A DNA stretch of 37,037 nucleotides from Acidimicrobiales bacterium (GTDB taxonomy: Bacteria; Actinomycetota; Acidimicrobiia; Acidimicrobiales; Iamiaceae), in the NCBI GenBank assembly GCA_012730075.1, contig JAAYBP010000105.1, positions 1 to 37,037 of the forward strand. The letters run 5' to 3'. The notes under the pieces are model-generated. The model had not been told where the DNA came from, did no database searches, and worked only from the letters and a program-made list of their open reading frames with translations. Below are positions 2,580-37,037 of the stretch, one piece after another (the first letter of the stretch is position 1; each line of letters begins with the position of its first letter). The translations under genes were made by a program, and so were the position numbers.

Positions 2580-3686
2580 GTGGGTGACCACCCGCTCATC
2601 CCCGACTACGACGGCGGTTGCATCTCGGGCCTCGTCCCGGCGCTGATCGAGCCGTCGGACGGGGCGCCGCCGGCCTGGCTGCCCGCCGCCGCGGTGGAGG
2701 CCGACCAGGTCGTGCTGCTCGTGCTCGACGGCCTCGGTTGGGAGCAGCTCCAGGCCCGCCGACCGCTGGCGCCGACCCTCTGCGACCTGGCCGGTGGGCC
2801 GATCGACAGCGTCACGCCGACCACCACCGCCACCGCCCTCACGTCGATCGCCACCGGTCTGCCGCCCGGCGACCACGGTGTCGTCGGCTACCGGGTCGCG
2901 GTCGACTCCGAGGTCCTGAACATCCTCCGCTGGAGCACGCCGCGGGGTGATGCCCGCCGGTCGATCGACCCCGAGCGGTTCCAGCCCCACTCGGCGTTCT
3001 GCGGGCAGCGTCCCGCGGTCGTCACCAAGGCCGAGTTCGCGTCGTCGGGCTTCAGCGGCGCCCACCTCAGCCAGGTGCGGTTCAACGGCTACCGGGTGCC
3101 GTCGACGCTGGTCACCGAGATCCGCCGGCTGCTCGCCGCGGGCGAGCCGTTCCTCTACGCGTACTACGACGGCGTCGACAAGGTCAGCCACGAGTACGGC
3201 CTCGGCGAGCACTACGACGCCGAGCTGTCCGCCGCCGACCGCCTGGTGGCCGACGTCCTCTCCGTCCTCCCGCCCGGTGCCGCGCTCGTGGTCACCGCCG
3301 ACCACGGGCAGGTCGACGTCGGCGACCGCATCGTCCACCTCCACCCCGACCTCGGGGAGCACATCGCCATGCAGTCCGGTGAGGGCCGCTTCCGGTGGTT
3401 GCACGCCCGGCCGGGCCGGGTCGCCGCCCTGCACGAGGCGGCCGCCGCCCACCACGGAGGCGACGCCTGGGTCGTCACCCGCGACGAGACCATCGAGGAC
3501 GGGTGGTGGGGTCCACGGGTCACCGACGACGCCCGGGCCCGCCTCGGCGACGTCGCCCTCGTCGCCCGCGAGCCGGTGTCGTTCCACGACGACGCCGACA
3601 CGGGCCCCTTCGTGCTCGTCGGTCGCCACGGGTCGATGACCCCGGCCGAGGTGCTCGTCCCCTGCCTGGTCGGCGCCAACCTCTGA
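2580..3686 (+). CDS. Alkaline phosphatase superfamily / type I phosphodiesterase-nucleotide pyrophosphatase family protein
   Basis: VLLVLDGLGWEQL, TPTTTATALTSIATGLPPGDHGVVGYR, YYDGVDKVSHEYG, TADHGQVDVGD metal-site motifs. Confidence 0.88.
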   Translation: MGDHPLIPDYDGGCISGLVPALIEPSDGAPPAWLPAAAVEADQVVLLVLDGLGWEQLQARRPLAPTLCDLAGGPIDSVTPTTTATALTSIATGLPPGDHGVVGYRVAVDSEVLNILRWSTPRGDARRSIDPERFQPHSAFCGQRPAVVTKAEFASSGFSGAHLSQVRFNGYRVPSTLVTEIRRLLAAGEPFLYAYYDGVDKVSHEYGLGEHYDAELSAADRLVADVLSVLPPGAALVVTADHGQVDVGDRIVHLHPDLGEHIAMQSGEGRFRWLHARPGRVAALHEAAAAHHGGDAWVVTRDETIEDGWWGPRVTDDARARLGDVALVAREPVSFHDDADTGPFVLVGRHGSMTPAEVLVPCLVGANL

Positions 3687-3748: not shown

Positions 3749-4357
3749 ATGACCGACACCACGCCGCCCGCCCCCGGATCGTCCGCAGACGGATCGCCCG
3801 CGCCGAACGAACCCGGCGCCGACGGACCGAGCCCCGACCCGACGGTGCAGGGCGAGCTGGTCGACGAGGCGATCGGGGAGGACGACGACCGCCGGGAGGC
3901 GATCGAGGAGCCGGCCAAGCTGATGCGCATCGGCTCGATGATCAAGGGCCTCCTCGAAGAGGTGCGCACCGCCGACCTCGACGACGCCGCCCGGGTCCGC
4001 CTGCGCGAGATCTACGAGACGTCGCTCGCGGAGCTGGGGTCCTCGCTGTCCGACGACCTGCTCGAGGAGCTGAAGCGGGTCACCAGCCCGTTCGCCGAGA
4101 GCGCCGAGAGCGCCGAGCCGCCGTCGGACGCCGAGCTGCGCATCGCCCAGGCCCAGCTCGTCGGGTGGCTGGAGGGCCTCTTCCACGGCATCCAGGCGTC
4201 GCTCTTCGCGCAGCAGATGGCGGCCCGGGCCCAGCTCGAGCAGCTCCACCGCCAGCTCCCCTCCGGCGGCGCGCCCGGTGCGGCCGGCCCCGCCGGTCCC
4301 GGCGGCCCGCCCCGCCCCGGCGGCCTCGGCGAGCCCGGCCCCGGCACCTACCTCTAG
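3749..4357 (+). CDS. bpa: Bacterial proteasome activator (Bpa / DUF2587-like)
   Basis: KLMRIGSMIKGLLEEVRTADLDDAARVRLREIYETSLAELGSSLSDDLLEELKRV...AQLVGWLEGLFHGIQASLFAQQMAARAQLEQ and C-terminal ...GPGTYL*, resembling the GQYL terminus of mycobacterial Bpa. Confidence 0.85.
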   Translation: MTDTTPPAPGSSADGSPAPNEPGADGPSPDPTVQGELVDEAIGEDDDRREAIEEPAKLMRIGSMIKGLLEEVRTADLDDAARVRLREIYETSLAELGSSLSDDLLEELKRVTSPFAESAESAEPPSDAELRIAQAQLVGWLEGLFHGIQASLFAQQMAARAQLEQLHRQLPSGGAPGAAGPAGPGGPPRPGGLGEPGPGTYL

Positions 4358-4391
4358 CCCGACCGGGGTTGAGGGGCGGCGCCGGGGTTGG

Positions 4392-4397
4392 TACGGT
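4392..4397 (+). promoter_or_regulatory. Putative -10 element (TACGGT) for dnaE
   Basis: ggTACGGTccg; the same GGTANGGTC context precedes several other genes in the window. Confidence 0.45.
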
Positions 4398-4416
4398 CCG
4401 AATCACAGCCGTGTCA

Positions 4417-4439
4417 TTCGTCCACAGACTGTGGACGAA
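4417..4439. promoter_or_regulatory. Perfect dyad TTCGTCCACAG-A-CTGTGGACGAA with DnaA-box-like half sites upstream of dnaE
   Basis: 11-bp perfect inverted arms with a 1-nt spacer; TGTGGA hexamers at 4430, 4443 and 4455. Confidence 0.7.
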
Positions 4440-4514
4440 CCATGTGGAAGCGGTTGTGGACCACCGTCGACGGTTCGTCGGCACCCCGCCGGGGCGGGAG
4501 GTCGAGGAGGTTCC

Positions 4515-7500
4515 GTGGGGGGCTCGTTCACCCACCTTCACACCCACACCGAGTACTCGATGCTCGACGGCGCGTCGCGCATCGAGTCGGTCGTGGCGGC
4601 GGCGGCGGCCGACGGCCAGCCGGCGCTCGGCATCACCGACCACGGCAACATGTACGGCGTCCTGCCGTTCTACAAGGCATGCCGTGAGCAGGGCATCAAC
4701 CCGGTCATCGGGTTCGAGGCCTACATGGCCCACGAGCACCGCAGCGAGCGCATCGCCACCCGCGGCAAGGTCGACGACACCGGCGGTGAGGGCGAGGGCG
4801 GCCGGAAGGCCTACTACCACCTGACCCTGCTCGCCGAGAACGACGTCGGCTACAAGAACCTGATCCAGCTCTCGTCGCGGGCGTTCCTCGAGGGCTACTA
4901 CCGCAAGCCCAAGGTCGACTGGGAGACCCTCGCCGACCACAGCGAGGGCGTCATCGCCACCACCGGCTGCCTCGGCGGGCACGTCCTCCAGTCGCTCCTG
5001 AACGGCGACCGCGACGGCGCGGTGCAGAAGGCGGCGCGGCTCCAGGAGATCTTCGGGCGCGACAACCTCTTCGTCGAGCTCCAGGACCACGGCATCCCCG
5101 AGCAGCACCGCACCAACCCGCAGCTCGTCGACATCGCCCGCCGCATCGGCGCCCCGCTGCTCGCCACCAACGACAGCCACTACACCCACGCGGACGACGC
5201 CGAGGGCCACGACGCCCTCCTCTGCGTGCAGACCGGCGCCCAGATCTCCCAGGGCGAGAACGAGCGCTTCAAGTTCAAGGGCCACGGCCACTACCTGAAG
5301 TCGGCCCAGGAGATGCGCCACCTGTTCCGGCACCTCGAGGTGGCGTGCGACAACACGCTCTGGGTCGCCGAGCGGGCCGACGTCACCATCGACACGTCCG
5401 GTCAGCCGAAGCTGCCGAGCTTCCCCCTGCCCGACGGCTTCGCGTCCGACACCGAGTACCTGCGCCACATCACGCTCGAGGGGGCGCGGGCCCGCTGGGG
5501 CGACGACCTGCCCGAGGCGGTGTCCGACCGCCTCGCCTACGAGCTGAAGACCATCGACGACATGGGCTTCTCGGCGTACTTCCTCATCACCTGGGACCTC
5601 ATCAAGCACGCCCGCGACCTGGAGATCCGGGTCGGTCCCGGGCGGGGGAGCGCGGCGGGCTGCGCGGTGGCGTACTGCCTGCGCATCACCGACATCGACC
5701 CGATCAAGTACGAGCTGCTCTTCGAGCGCTTCCTCAACCCCAGCCGGGTGTCGATGCCCGACATCGACATGGACTTCGACTCCCGCTACCGGGACGAGAT
5801 GATCCGCTACGCGGCCGAGCGCTACGGCCGCGACCACGTCGCCCAGATCATCACCTTCTCCACCATCAAGGCCCGGGCCGCGGTGCGCGACGCGGCCCGG
5901 GTGCTCGGGCTGGCCTACGGCGTCGGCGACAAGGTCGCCAAGGCGATGCCGCCGCTGGTGATGGGGCGCGACACGCCGCTCTACGCCTGCATGGAGGAGC
6001 ACCCGAAGTTCGTCGACGGCTACCAGCGGGCCGCCGAGCTGCGGAAGATGTACGCCGAGGACCCCGAGGTCGCCCGGGTCGTCGACGTCGCCAAGAGCCT
6101 CGAGGGCATGCGCCGCCAGGACGGCATCCACGCCGCCGCGGTGGTGATCACCGACGACTCCCTCACCGAGTACCTGCCGATCCAGCGCAAGCCCGGGCCG
6201 GGGCAGGACCCCGACGAGGCGCCGGTCGTCACCCAGTACGAGATGGGCAGCGTCGAGGAGCTCGGCCTGCTCAAGATGGACTTCCTCGGACTGCGGAACC
6301 TCGACGTCATCACCGACACGATCCAGCTCATCCGCGACTTCCGGGGCGTCGAGGTCGACATCGACGACCCGCCGCTCGACGACGAGGCGACCTTCGAGAT
6401 GCTCCGCCGGGGCGACTCGATCGGCGTGTTCCAGTTCGAGGGCGGCGGGCTACGCCAGCTCCTGCGCCGCATGGCGCCCACCACCTTCGAGGACGTCGCC
6501 GCCCTCGTCGCGCTCTACCGGCCGGGGCCGATGGGCGTGAACATGCACAACGACTACGCCGACATCAAGAACGAGCGCAAGGCGGTGTCGTACTTCCACC
6601 CCGACGCCGAGGAGCTCCTGGCCGACACGTTCGGGCTGATGATCTACCAGGAGTCGATGATGGGCGTGTCGCAGCGCTTCGCCGGCTACTCCCTCGCCGA
6701 CGCCGACAACCTGCGCAAGGCGTGCGGCAAGAAGAAGCGGGAGGTGATGGAGCAGGAGCGGGCCAAGTTCGTCGACGGATGCGACGCGTCCGGGTACGGC
6801 CGCGACCTCGGCACCCACCTGTTCGACACGATCGAGAACTTCGCCGACTACGCCTTCAACAAGTCCCACGCCTACGGCTACGGCTTCGTCTCGTACCAGA
6901 CCGCCTACCTGAAGGCGAACCATCGCATCGAGTACCTGGCGGCCCTGCTGACCAGCGTCAAGACCAACCTCGACAAGGCGGCGGTGTACCTCAACGAGTG
7001 CCGCCAGTCGCAGATCCCGGTGCTGGTCCCCGACGTGAACCGTTCACAGGCCGACTTCGTGCCCGCCCGCCTCGACGACGGTACCGAGGTGATCCCCTTC
7101 GGCCTCTCCGCGGTGCGCAACGTCGGGTCGGGGCTCGTCGCCCAGCTCCTCGAGGAGCGCGACGCGGGCGGTCCCTTCGGCGACTTCTACGACTTCTGCG
7201 ACCGCGTCCCGCTGCCGGTGCTCAACAAGAAGACGATCGAGTCGCTGATCAAGGCGGGCGGGTTCGACTCGCTCGGCCACCCCCGCAAGGGCCTGCTGAT
7301 CAGCTTCGAACCCATCGTCGACATGACGATCTCGCGGCGCCGCCAGGAGGACCAGGGCGTCATGTCGCTCTTCGACGACGCCCCGAGCGGAGACGGCGGC
7401 TTCGACGACCGGCCCGAGATCCCCGACGTCGAGTTCGACAAGACCGAGCGCCTGAAGCTCGAGAAGGAGATGCTCGGCCTGTACGTGTCGGACCACCCGA

Positions 7501-33262: not shown

Positions 33263-33811
33263 GTGGAGCTGACGCTTCCCTCGCTCGTCGTGCCTGCCGC
33301 CGGGCTCACGCTGCGGCCGTGGCGGCCGGACGACGCGCCCGCCCTGGTCGCGGCCTGGGGCGACCCCGACATCGCCGCCGAGACCGTCGTACCGAAGGTC
33401 GCGGACCGCGACGAGGCGGTCCGCTGGATCGCGGCGGCTCCCACCCGGGCCGCCGCCGGGGTCGCCGTCGACGTGGCGGTCGAGCGCGACGGCGCCGTCG
33501 TGGGCGAGGTGGGCCTGGCCCGCCTCACCCTCCGGGTCGCGGACGGCGCCGGGCGACGCGTCGAGTGGGAGATCGGCTGGTGGCTGCTCCCCCCGGCGCG
33601 CGGGGCGGGGGTCGCGACCGCGGCCGCGGACCGCCTCGCCGGGTGGGCGGTCGCCCAGCCGGGCATCGAGCGCGTCGTCGCCCGCATCCGCTCGGGCCAC
33701 GGGGCGTCGGAGGCGGTCGCGCGCCGGATCGGTCTCCGCCGCGTCGGCGCCGCGGGCCCGGACCGTGACCTCTGGGTCGGGCCCCCGTCGGGGTGTTCCG
33801 GCGCGGGGTAG
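33263..33811 (+). CDS. GNAT family N-acetyltransferase
   Basis: LTLRPWRPDDAPALVAAWGDPDI, VEWEIGWWLLPPARGAGVATAAADRLAGWAVAQPGIERVVARIRSGHGASEAVARRIGLRRVG. Confidence 0.87.
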   Translation: MELTLPSLVVPAAGLTLRPWRPDDAPALVAAWGDPDIAAETVVPKVADRDEAVRWIAAAPTRAAAGVAVDVAVERDGAVVGEVGLARLTLRVADGAGRRVEWEIGWWLLPPARGAGVATAAADRLAGWAVAQPGIERVVARIRSGHGASEAVARRIGLRRVGAAGPDRDLWVGPPSGCSGAG

Positions 33812-33814
33812 GGT
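33809..33814 (+). promoter_or_regulatory. Putative -10 element (TAGGGT) of the pyr operon
   Basis: gggTAGGGTcgg; places the TSS near 33821, just before the PyrR-loop hairpin. Confidence 0.5.
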
Positions 33815-33822
33815 CGGGGCCG

Positions 33823-33855
33823 TCCGTGAAGCGGGTCCGGTGAGGCCCGCACGGA
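33823..33855 (+). ncRNA. PyrR-binding-loop RNA hairpin in the pyrR 5' leader (overlaps SD)
   Basis: tccgt-gaa-gcgggtc-CGGTGA-ggcccgc-acgga: 5-bp lower stem, 5'-side GAA bulge, 7-bp upper stem (one U.G), CNGNGA hexaloop; ggagga SD at 33853-33858. Confidence 0.8.
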
Positions 33856-33866
33856 GGAAGCAGCGA

Positions 33867-34433
33867 GTGGCAGACAGAGAGCGACGCATCTCGCCGCCGT
33901 ACGGCGGTGTGTTCGTGCCCCGGACGCGGGTCCTCGACCGCGACGACGTGGCCCGGGCCATCTGGCGGATGGCCCACGAGGTGATCGAGCGGAACCACGG
34001 CCTCGACGGCGTGGTCCTGGTCGGCCTCCAGACCGGCGGTGGTTGGATCGCCGAGCGCCTGGCCGAGGCCCTCGACTCGATCGAGCACGTCCGGCCCGCG
34101 GTCGGCCTCCTCGACGTGGCGTTCTACCGCGACGACATCGGGCTGCGGCCGGTGCTGCCCGAGGCGGTCACCGAGCTGCCCTCCGACATCGACGGCGCCC
34201 AGGTGGTGCTCGTCGACGACGTCCTCTTCACCGGCCGCACGATCCGCGCCGCCCTCGACGCCCTCCACGACTACGGCCGGCCCCGCAGCGTGCAGCTCGC
34301 GGTCATGGTCGACCGGGGCCACCGGGAGCTGCCGATCCGCCCCGACTACGTCGGCAAGAACCTGCCGACCCGCCGCGACGAGGTGGTCGACGTCCACCCC
34401 GAAGGCGTCGACCTGGGGGAGATGGTCCGGTGA
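33867..34433 (+). CDS. pyrR: Bifunctional pyr operon regulator / uracil phosphoribosyltransferase
   Basis: [84 protein letters not shown] start 8 nt after SD. Confidence 0.95.
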
Positions 34434-35443
34434 GGCACCTGCTCTCCTCGGCCGACCTCGACCGCGACGACGTCGAGGCGCTGCTCGACCTCACCGACAG
34501 CTTCGTCGAGGTCAGCAACCGGGCGATCCCCAAGGTCCCCGCGCTCCGGGGTCGCACCGTCGCCACCATGTTCTTCGAGGACTCCACCCGCACCCGGCTG
34601 TCGTTCGAGACGGCCGCCAAGCGCCTGTCCGCCGACACGATGAGCTTCAGCGCCTCGTCGTCGTCGGTGAACAAGGGGGAATCGCTCCGCGACACGGCTC
34701 TCACGCTCGAGGCGATGGGCGTCGACGCCGTCGTCGTGCGCCACCGGTCGTCCGGCGCGCCGCACCGGGTGGCGTCGTGGGTCGACGTCCGCGTCGTCAA
34801 CGGCGGTGACGGCTGGCACGACCATCCGACCCAGGGGCTCCTCGACGCCTACACGCTGCGCGGCCGCCTCGGTCCGCTCGACGGACGGCGGGTGGCGATC
34901 GTCGGCGATGTCAAGCACTCCCGGGTCGCCCGGGCCGACGTGGCGATCCTGACGACGCTCGGGGCGGAGGTCACCCTCGTCGCCCCGCCGACGCTGCTCC
35001 CGCCGTCGATCGAGGGCTGGCCCGCCACCGCGGTCCACGATCTCGACGCCGTGCTGCCCGAGGTCGACGCGGTCGTCCTCCTCCGCATGCAGCGCGAGCG
35101 CATGACCGAGGCGCTGGTGCCGTCGCTTCGCGAGTACACCGCCCGCTGGGGCCTCACCGTCGATCGGGCCCGCCGCCTTCGCGACGATGTCGTGTTCATG
35201 CACCCCGGGCCGATGAACCGCGGCGTCGAGATCGCCCCCGAGGTGGCCGACGACCCGCGGGCGGTCATCGTCGACCAGGTGCGCAACGGCGTCGCCGTGC
35301 GGATGGCGGTGCTGTTCCGCCTCCTCGCCGGCGAGGGCCCCGAGCCGGTCGCCGACGTCGTCTCCGACGGTGCGGACGACCGGTCCGTCGCCGCCGACCT
35401 GAGCGAGCAGCCGGTCGGGGCCGGCGACGGAGGTGCGACGTGA
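34430..35443 (+). CDS. pyrB: Aspartate carbamoyltransferase catalytic subunit
   Basis: [74 protein letters not shown] overlap with pyrR. Confidence 0.96.
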
Positions 35444-36753
35444 GCCAGGCGAGCCGGGGGAGTGGGCCGTCGATCGTGATTCGCGGCGGCCGCGTCGTCG
35501 ACGCGTCGGGCGAGCGCCGCGCCGACGTGGCGGTGGTCGAAGGCCGCGTGGCGGCGGTCGAGGCTGACCTCGACGTGCCGTCCGGTGCCCGGGTGCTCGA
35601 CGCGGGTGGCTGCGTCGTCGCCCCCGGGTTCGTCGACCTCCACGCCCACCTGCGCCAGCCGGGCCGGGAGGAGGCCGAGACCGTCGAGTCCGGCAGCCGC
35701 TGCGCCGCGCTCGGCGGTTTCACCGCGGTCGTCGCCATGCCCAACACCACCCCGGCGATCGACAGCGCGTCGGTCGTGCGGGAGGTGATCGAGCTGGGTC
35801 GCACCGCGCTGTGCGAGGTCCACCCGTCGGGCGCGATCACGGTCGACCGGGCCGGGGAGCGGCTCGCCCCGATGGGCGAGATGGCCGACCTCGGCGTGCG
35901 GATCTTCACCGACGACGGCACCGGGGTGCAGGACGACGGGCTGATGCGACGGGCGATGGAGTACGCCGTCGGCCTTCCGTACGACGTCGTGCTCGCCCAG
36001 CACTGCGAGAACGACCGGCTCTGCGCCGGCGGCCACATGCACGAGGGCGAGTGGTCGTCGCGGCTCGGCATAGCCGGTCAGCCGGCCGAGGCCGAGGAGG
36101 CGATGGTCGCGCGCGACATCGCCCTCGCCCGCCTCACCGGGGCCCGGATCCACATGCAGCACATGTCGACGGCCGGGTCGGTCGCCCTGATCGCGGCGGC
36201 CCGGGCCGAGGGTCTGGCGATCAGCGCCGAGGCGACGCCGCACCACCTGCTGCTCACCCACGCGGAGTGCGCCTCGTTCGATCCGACCTTCAAGGTCAAC
36301 CCGCCGCTGCGCACCGACGCCGACGTCGAGGCGGTCCGGCGCGGCGTGCTCGACGGCACCCTCGACGTGATCGCGACCGACCACGCGCCCCACCCGCCGG
36401 AGGCGAAGGACGAACCGTTCGACCTCGCCCCGCCGGGGATGCTCGGGCTGGAGTTCGCCCTCGGTGTCGCCCTGTCGGTGCTGGACCTGCCGCTGCCGGA
36501 GCTGGTGCGGCGGCTGTCGACCCGCCCGGCCGAGATCGCCGGCCTCACCGATTCGCAGGGCGGGCCGGTCGAGCCCGGTCGCCCGGCGAACCTCTGCGTG
36601 TTCGACCCGACCGCGACCTGGACGGTCGAGCCCGGCATGACCGCCAGCCGCAGCCGCAACATCCCCTACGTCGGCCGCACCCTCTCCGGCCGGGTCCGCC
36701 ACACCCTCCGCGCCGGCGAACCCGTCGTCCTCGACGGCACCCCCCAGCGGTAA
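35440..36753 (+). CDS. pyrC: Dihydroorotase
   Basis: [84 protein letters not shown]. Confidence 0.96.
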
Positions 36754-36867: not shown

Positions 36868-37037
36868 ATGCCGATCAAGAAGCACCCCGTCCGCACCCTC
36901 ATCTTCATGGCGATCTCCCTGGTCGTCGGGCTCATCGGCGTCTTTCGACCCACCGGTCCCGACCTGTCGTCGGGCGACTGCATCGCCGGAGGCAACCAGG
37001 TGAAGGAGGTCGACTGCTCGTCGCCCTCGGCCCGCTA
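36868..37037 (+). CDS. Secreted/membrane-anchored protein (3' truncated), septum-formation-like Cys motif
   Basis: MPIKKHPVRTLIFMAISLVVGLIGVFRPTGPDLSSGDCIAGGNQVKEVDCSSPSAR...; aggaagga SD; runs off the window end. Confidence 0.65.
   Translation, partial: MPIKKHPVRTLIFMAISLVVGLIGVFRPTGPDLSSGDCIAGGNQVKEVDCSSPSAR

Follow-up and report, generated by a model that had tools for sequence, protein, structure and literature searches.

The DNA analyzed here (hereafter, the window) comprises positions 1 to 37,037 of the forward strand of contig JAAYBP010000105.1, from an Acidimicrobiales bacterium of the Iamiaceae (assembly GCA_012730075.1). Its forward strand carries pyrR, with a GTG start (33867-34433); pyrB, encoding aspartate carbamoyltransferase, which overlaps the pyrR stop codon and whose start is approximate (34430-35443); and pyrC, encoding dihydroorotase (35440-36753). 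The pyrR product matches NF003549 with 213 bits against a cut-off of 138, and PDB PyrR chains at 4e-51; pyrB matches NF002032 (397 bits), and pyrC matches NF006836 (508 bits) and TIGR00857, the latter above its cut-off. Beyond pyrC, at 36868-37037, lies a small ORF whose start looks like a membrane anchor (MPIKKHPVRTLIFMAISL) and which is cut off by the end of the contig. carAB does not directly follow pyrC in the window; the sister genome G296 differs. Immediately 5' of pyrR are a putative promoter element, a hairpin resembling the binding loop of the PyrR protein, and a Shine-Dalgarno (SD) sequence that the hairpin partly covers.

The hairpin (33823-33855, forward strand) reads, from 5' to 3', UCCGU, GAA, GCGGGUC, CGGUGA, GGCCCGC and ACGGA. 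Its lower stem pairs UCCGU (33823-33827) with ACGGA (33851-33855), a GAA bulge follows at 33828-33830, and the 7-bp upper stem (33831-33837 with 33844-33850) closes a CGGUGA hexaloop (33838-33843) of the CNGNGA form recognized by PyrR. With a UCCNGNGAGGY loop region and a stem interrupted by a purine-rich internal bulge, the hairpin agrees with the PyrR binding-loop consensus. The initial annotation had proposed this sequence, fold and consensus match from the letters alone, and all three held up: the fold is exact, and homologues conserve the structure. The annotation had also pointed to the Rfam PyrR model as a check, and in this respect it fared less well, since RF00515 does not list the window site even at E ≤ 10. 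The predicted folding energy of the window's 81-nt fold is no stronger than that of shuffled sequences (z = −0.38). Given that the fold alone is unremarkable and RF00515 is silent, support for the hairpin must be comparative. A SAM-IV match on the opposite strand scored 17.5 bits, below threshold, and was set aside as chance.

Comparative evidence came from 110 pyrR loci of the class Acidimicrobiia, the window's own and some duplicates included (98 are distinct); the loci were found partly with author-made patterns, the genomes are mostly MAGs, and sequences of close kin do not count as independent. The hairpin lies just 5' of pyrR in 110/110 of these loci. Among 85 distinct aligned sequences (alignment A1), 91.2% of pair cells hold standard pairs, as opposed to 19-43% when the pairing partner is slid, and 81 cells show double changes, compared with 24.2 in shuffles. 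The structure is thus kept by compensatory change, as expected of a PyrR binding loop, while the key loop letters (C, G, G and A) and the 3' arm of the lower stem are invariant across the 85 sequences. Some other lineages (L149, L169, L172, L177) have a lower stem of CCUUU with AAAGG or CAAGG instead of CCGU with ACGG. In L027 (~2919-3000), about three copies of the binding loop's 3' arm (gcccgcacggatatg) lie between hairpin and SD, in a slippage-like pattern.

A covariance model, R1, was built from the 85 aligned hairpins; its E-values are rough. It scores the window hairpin at 54.2 bits and, across the 3.3-Mb genome, yields just two confident sites, one before pyrR (E = 1e-11 genome-wide) and one before carA (E = 7e-14), the next match having an E-value of 0.2. 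R1 sites are present in 179 of 296 genomes of the class. When the two genome lists were compared by eye, none of the listed genomes without a clear pyrR match had a site, a co-occurrence that is in part trivial, as most of the sites lie before pyrR. Every site that was read sits before pyrR or carA. By comparison of these sequences, the window hairpin is a real element whose conservation rules out chance, and it is predicted to be a PyrR binding loop.

The position of the hairpin within the transcript can be estimated from a putative −10 element, TAGGGT (33809-33814). A TANNNT motif falls between −26 and −16 relative to the CGT of the hairpin's lower stem in 91/98 relatives, and exactly at −17 in 71 of the 98; in control windows farther upstream, the motif occurs in 15/1156 cases (1.3%). 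Standard promoter spacing, 7 nt past the −10 box, would place the transcription start in a zone at 33819-33823. Since the −10 box stands at a fixed spacing, the RNA should begin at the foot of the hairpin (~33821 in the window), and the pyrR-pyrB-pyrC mRNA should carry the hairpin at its extreme 5' end. These data lend support to the earlier suggestion that transcription starts a few nucleotides before the hairpin. An acetyltransferase-like ORF upstream (33263-33811) ends in a TAG stop codon that overlaps this putative −10 box.

The SD sequence, GGAGGA (33853-33858), lies partly within the lower stem, 8 nt before the GTG at 33867; positions 33853-33855 belong to both, so that the overlap with the 3' arm of the lower stem described in the initial annotation is confirmed for this species. 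In most relatives the SD starts 2-6 nt past the stem, and the window represents the extreme, with an SD that begins inside it. The predicted cost of opening the SD is correspondingly 5.8-7.0 kcal/mol in the window, compared with a mean of 2.4-3.6 kcal/mol over all loci. When the outer 5' flanks were swapped between loci, masking dropped from 2.37 to 2.02 ± 0.06 kcal/mol or, under the other assumed start, from 3.62 to 2.98 ± 0.12 kcal/mol, suggesting that flank and SD are co-adapted, albeit modestly. Because the bare window hairpin already hides the SD to this extent, basal translation without PyrR may be low. The same masking would suit a hairpin that acts independently of PyrR, as a 5' stabilizer or a constitutive cover for the SD, but this explanation is very improbable given that the loop and bulge letters are invariant and that the sites read all stand before pyrR or carA, with none seen in a listed genome lacking a clear pyrR.

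In Mycobacterium smegmatis, the PyrR binding loop of the leader is reportedly located at the SD of pyrR, such that pyrR translation is blocked. The window resembles this arrangement in that its binding loop covers the first gene's SD, and the position of the SD inside the stem is consistent with the block to translation initiation originally predicted, which would be the first step of regulation. PyrR-dependent translational repression in M. smegmatis is a published mechanism (Fields and Switzer 2007, as cited in PMC13328217). Relative to M. smegmatis, the Acidimicrobiia add a terminator within the first codons of pyrR and, at a carA leader peptide, another binding site.

In most loci, pyrR codons 9-17 read ACG CCC CCN TAY GGG GGC GTT TTT GTT, with small variations. 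The corresponding RNA, CGCCCCC-NNNN-GGGGGCG followed by a run of U's, is an intrinsic terminator. Strict terminators are found at about codon 9 in 76/96 loci, with a single one in the remaining 30-nt bins between −200 and +560. Over all collected loci, again found with author-made patterns, a strict terminator lies within 140 nt of the binding loop at 89/149 pyrR sites and 13/17 carA sites, as opposed to 4/919 control windows; the other 60/149 pyrR sites, in some lineages, have a binding loop without one. The terminator stem covaries, with 13 double-change cells compared with 2.0 in shuffles. Codon usage is shifted toward U-rich codons, since within the motif GTT accounts for 77% of Val codons and TTT for 49.5% of Phe codons, as opposed to 7.8% and 11.5%, respectively, elsewhere in pyrR, such that the usage of these codons is 4-10 times the norm for the gene. 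In 64 of 92 loci with a terminator-like match, no more than 1 in 60 synonymous recodings equals the native sequence, and this test is conservative because the peptide is kept. The codon in the terminator loop can encode Y, F, R, L, H, Q, K or S; this freedom suggests that the RNA, rather than the peptide, is conserved. None of the solved PyrR structures aligns to the N-terminal extension (PPYGGVFV). For the family, codon bias and covariation led to rejection of the idea that peptide conservation alone accounts for the hairpin. Judged by these sequence features, an intrinsic terminator is embedded in the coding frame of pyrR, or in the ORF of a leader peptide, across most of the class.

The second binding loop in the window's genome (L144, G000:C407, minus strand, ~3838) lies 5' of carA, the identity of which was confirmed by TIGR01368, and has its own −10-like box, TAGGTT. 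Contig C407 was assigned to the window's organism by binning, and the assignment is backed by a like arrangement in three sister genomes; two binding-loop sites are present in 4/4 genomes of the genus. The SD at this site serves a 23-codon ORF (LQHDPIALCRPAGGVFVRGRSAR), the end of which overlaps the carA start, and within the ORF an 11-bp terminator hairpin (−21.3 kcal/mol) precedes UUUUCGUA. The carA leader ORFs of the family have 22-31 codons, contain the hairpin, end at the carA start, and mostly have good U-tracts. In other lineages, separate leader ORFs precede pyrR at four loci (L227, L230, L231, L172), where the leader stop overlaps the pyrR start, and at L177 the stop codon of such an ORF falls within the terminator loop. 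From these separate leader ORFs, we infer that the N-terminal extension of PyrR is a leader that has become fused to the gene. At L146, the hairpin in the carA leader ORF (from 2929) is 15 bp long and nearly perfect (UGCAUGUUCGUGCAC/GUGCAUGAACAUGCA), and it lacks a U-tract. At L145 (G110), an ORF that by eye is AlaX-like (alanyl-tRNA editing) lies between pyrC and the carA loop (~4090-4900, minus strand).

The window's own pyrR departs from the class-wide pattern. A terminator-like stem-loop, CGCCGCC GUAC GGCGGUG, spans codons 9-14 (33892-33909; −12.2 kcal/mol), with a 7-bp stem that carries compensated changes and sits at the same place as the embedded terminator of the relatives. The tail behind this stem is UGUUCGUG, giving a degenerate U-tract at 33910-33917 (TGTTCGTG, with 4 T of 8, where relatives have TTTTTGTT). 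A strict terminator scan of the window returned no hit, and 4/60 synonymous recodings score at least as well as the native sequence. Sister genomes resemble the window; in G110 the tail is weaker still, and both hairpins there are without a U-tract. The initial annotation had stated that there is no terminator, which holds for the window under the strict scan but overlooks the degenerate stem-loop in codons 9-14 and the full terminators of most relatives. The poor U-tract and the outcome of the recoding test suggest that the window's terminator may be vestigial, and translational repression is probably the dominant step for this copy of pyrR, as far as can be predicted from sequence. A terminator that lies in a translated ORF and could be covered by a ribosome, the arrangement needed for ribosome-dependent attenuation, is predicted class-wide and at carA, and in weak form in the window's pyrR.

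The degenerate U-tract, the empty strict scan, and an SD overlap that is strongest in the window would all fit repression at translation alone, like that of M. smegmatis, with the coding-region hairpin a by-product of the conserved peptide PPYGGVFV. This explanation is possible but rather unlikely, since it leaves unexplained the covarying stem, free loop codon and skewed GTT/TTT usage of the relatives, the occurrence of the same hairpin in otherwise unlike carA leader peptides, and the failure of PyrR structures to align to the N-terminal extension.

The data are best accommodated by a model in which PyrR-UMP stops translation initiation and an exposed terminator then ends transcription, as the general rule in the class, with regulation in the window mainly translational; we give this model a probability of roughly 0.7. 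We infer PyrR binding, the response to UMP, and competition between ribosome and terminator from the conserved arrangement. When UMP is plentiful, PyrR-UMP would bind and stabilize the hairpin at the 5' end of the pyrR-pyrB-pyrC mRNA, and the bound hairpin would block the SD, preventing pyrR translation. A translating ribosome would cover the terminator in codons 9-17, or in the short leader ORF before pyrR or carA; if the start were blocked, the terminator would be left uncovered, fold, and stop transcription. Because the terminator is hidden within the first codons, a block to the ribosome would probably also end transcription of the operon. The location of the terminator within an ORF whose SD is the target of PyrR suggests that the ribosome itself serves as the antiterminator, like in E. 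coli pyrL. In the window's species, the pyrR copy would act mainly on translation, while the carA copy would keep the full attenuator. With moderate confidence, we further propose that PyrR in the Acidimicrobiia controls transcription via the ribosome, with the embedded terminator reading initiation, PPYGGVFV representing a former leader, and the module persisting in free form before carA.

Classical attenuation of the Bacillus type, in which PyrR stabilizes an anti-antiterminator and an antiterminator competes with both the binding loop and the terminator, would account for the presence of the latter two elements. It is also compatible with the RF00515 alignment to one pyrR site of the family (35 bits), which extends over the full length of the model, including binding loop and terminator. 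However, the mean probability of the terminator helix in the family is 0.97 with the binding loop closed and 0.96 with the loop forced open. Folding of the family terminator is thus unaffected by the state of the loop, and no competing RNA-only antiterminator is apparent in the family by this thermodynamic test, which leaves room for kinetic folding effects. In the window alone, which has a weaker terminator hairpin, opening the binding loop lowers the probability from 0.77 to 0.54, which points weakly toward the Bacillus mechanism, yet the U-tract there is poor. Overall, we consider Bacillus-type attenuation improbable.

The proposed coupling of PyrR to transcription through the ribosome has parallels in other systems. 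For the Thermus ZO5 pyr operon, Van de Casteele and colleagues are said to have proposed in 1997 a ribosome-dependent PyrR attenuation without an antiterminator. The Acidimicrobiia leaders share the lack of an antiterminator and the idea that a translating ribosome prevents terminator formation, so the logic is not wholly new; whereas the Thermus case is a proposal for one leader, the Acidimicrobiia form is class-wide, fused into pyrR, repeated at carA, and backed by comparative data. Attenuation at E. coli pyrL-pyrBI senses UTP through RNA polymerase. It resembles the Acidimicrobiia arrangement in having a terminator within a leader ORF that the ribosome suppresses, but in the Acidimicrobiia a protein, PyrR, would gate initiation. 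The advancing ribosome is known to inhibit the pyr leader terminator in E. coli (PMC5021804). The Bacillus binding-loop consensus, ARUCCAGAGAGGYU, and the attenuation mechanism associated with it have been summarized (PMC7430163). Like RF00515 and the Bacillus pyr attenuators, the Acidimicrobiia leaders combine the binding-loop consensus with a downstream terminator; they differ in that no antiterminator was detected, the terminator lies inside a translated ORF, and RF00515 scores are below the cut-off. Of the genomes scanned, 0/21 exceed the RF00515 gathering cut-off of 54 bits, with a best score of 40 bits, indicating that the Rfam model at its cut-off misses Acidimicrobiia sites.

A literature search turned up no publication dealing with PyrR leaders in Acidimicrobiia, and the embedded class-wide form and its carA copy appear to be undescribed in the literature searched. 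If the model is correct, a single device joins the two known modes of PyrR action, termination as in Bacillus and translation as in mycobacteria, and explains how blocking the start of one gene could shut off an entire operon. The N-terminus of the protein would then owe its sequence to an RNA terminator and not to what the protein does, a reason for caution in interpreting conserved N-terminal motifs. The sites before both pyrR and carA suggest that the PyrR regulon of this large and mostly uncultured class is wider, taking in carAB as well as pyrRBC.
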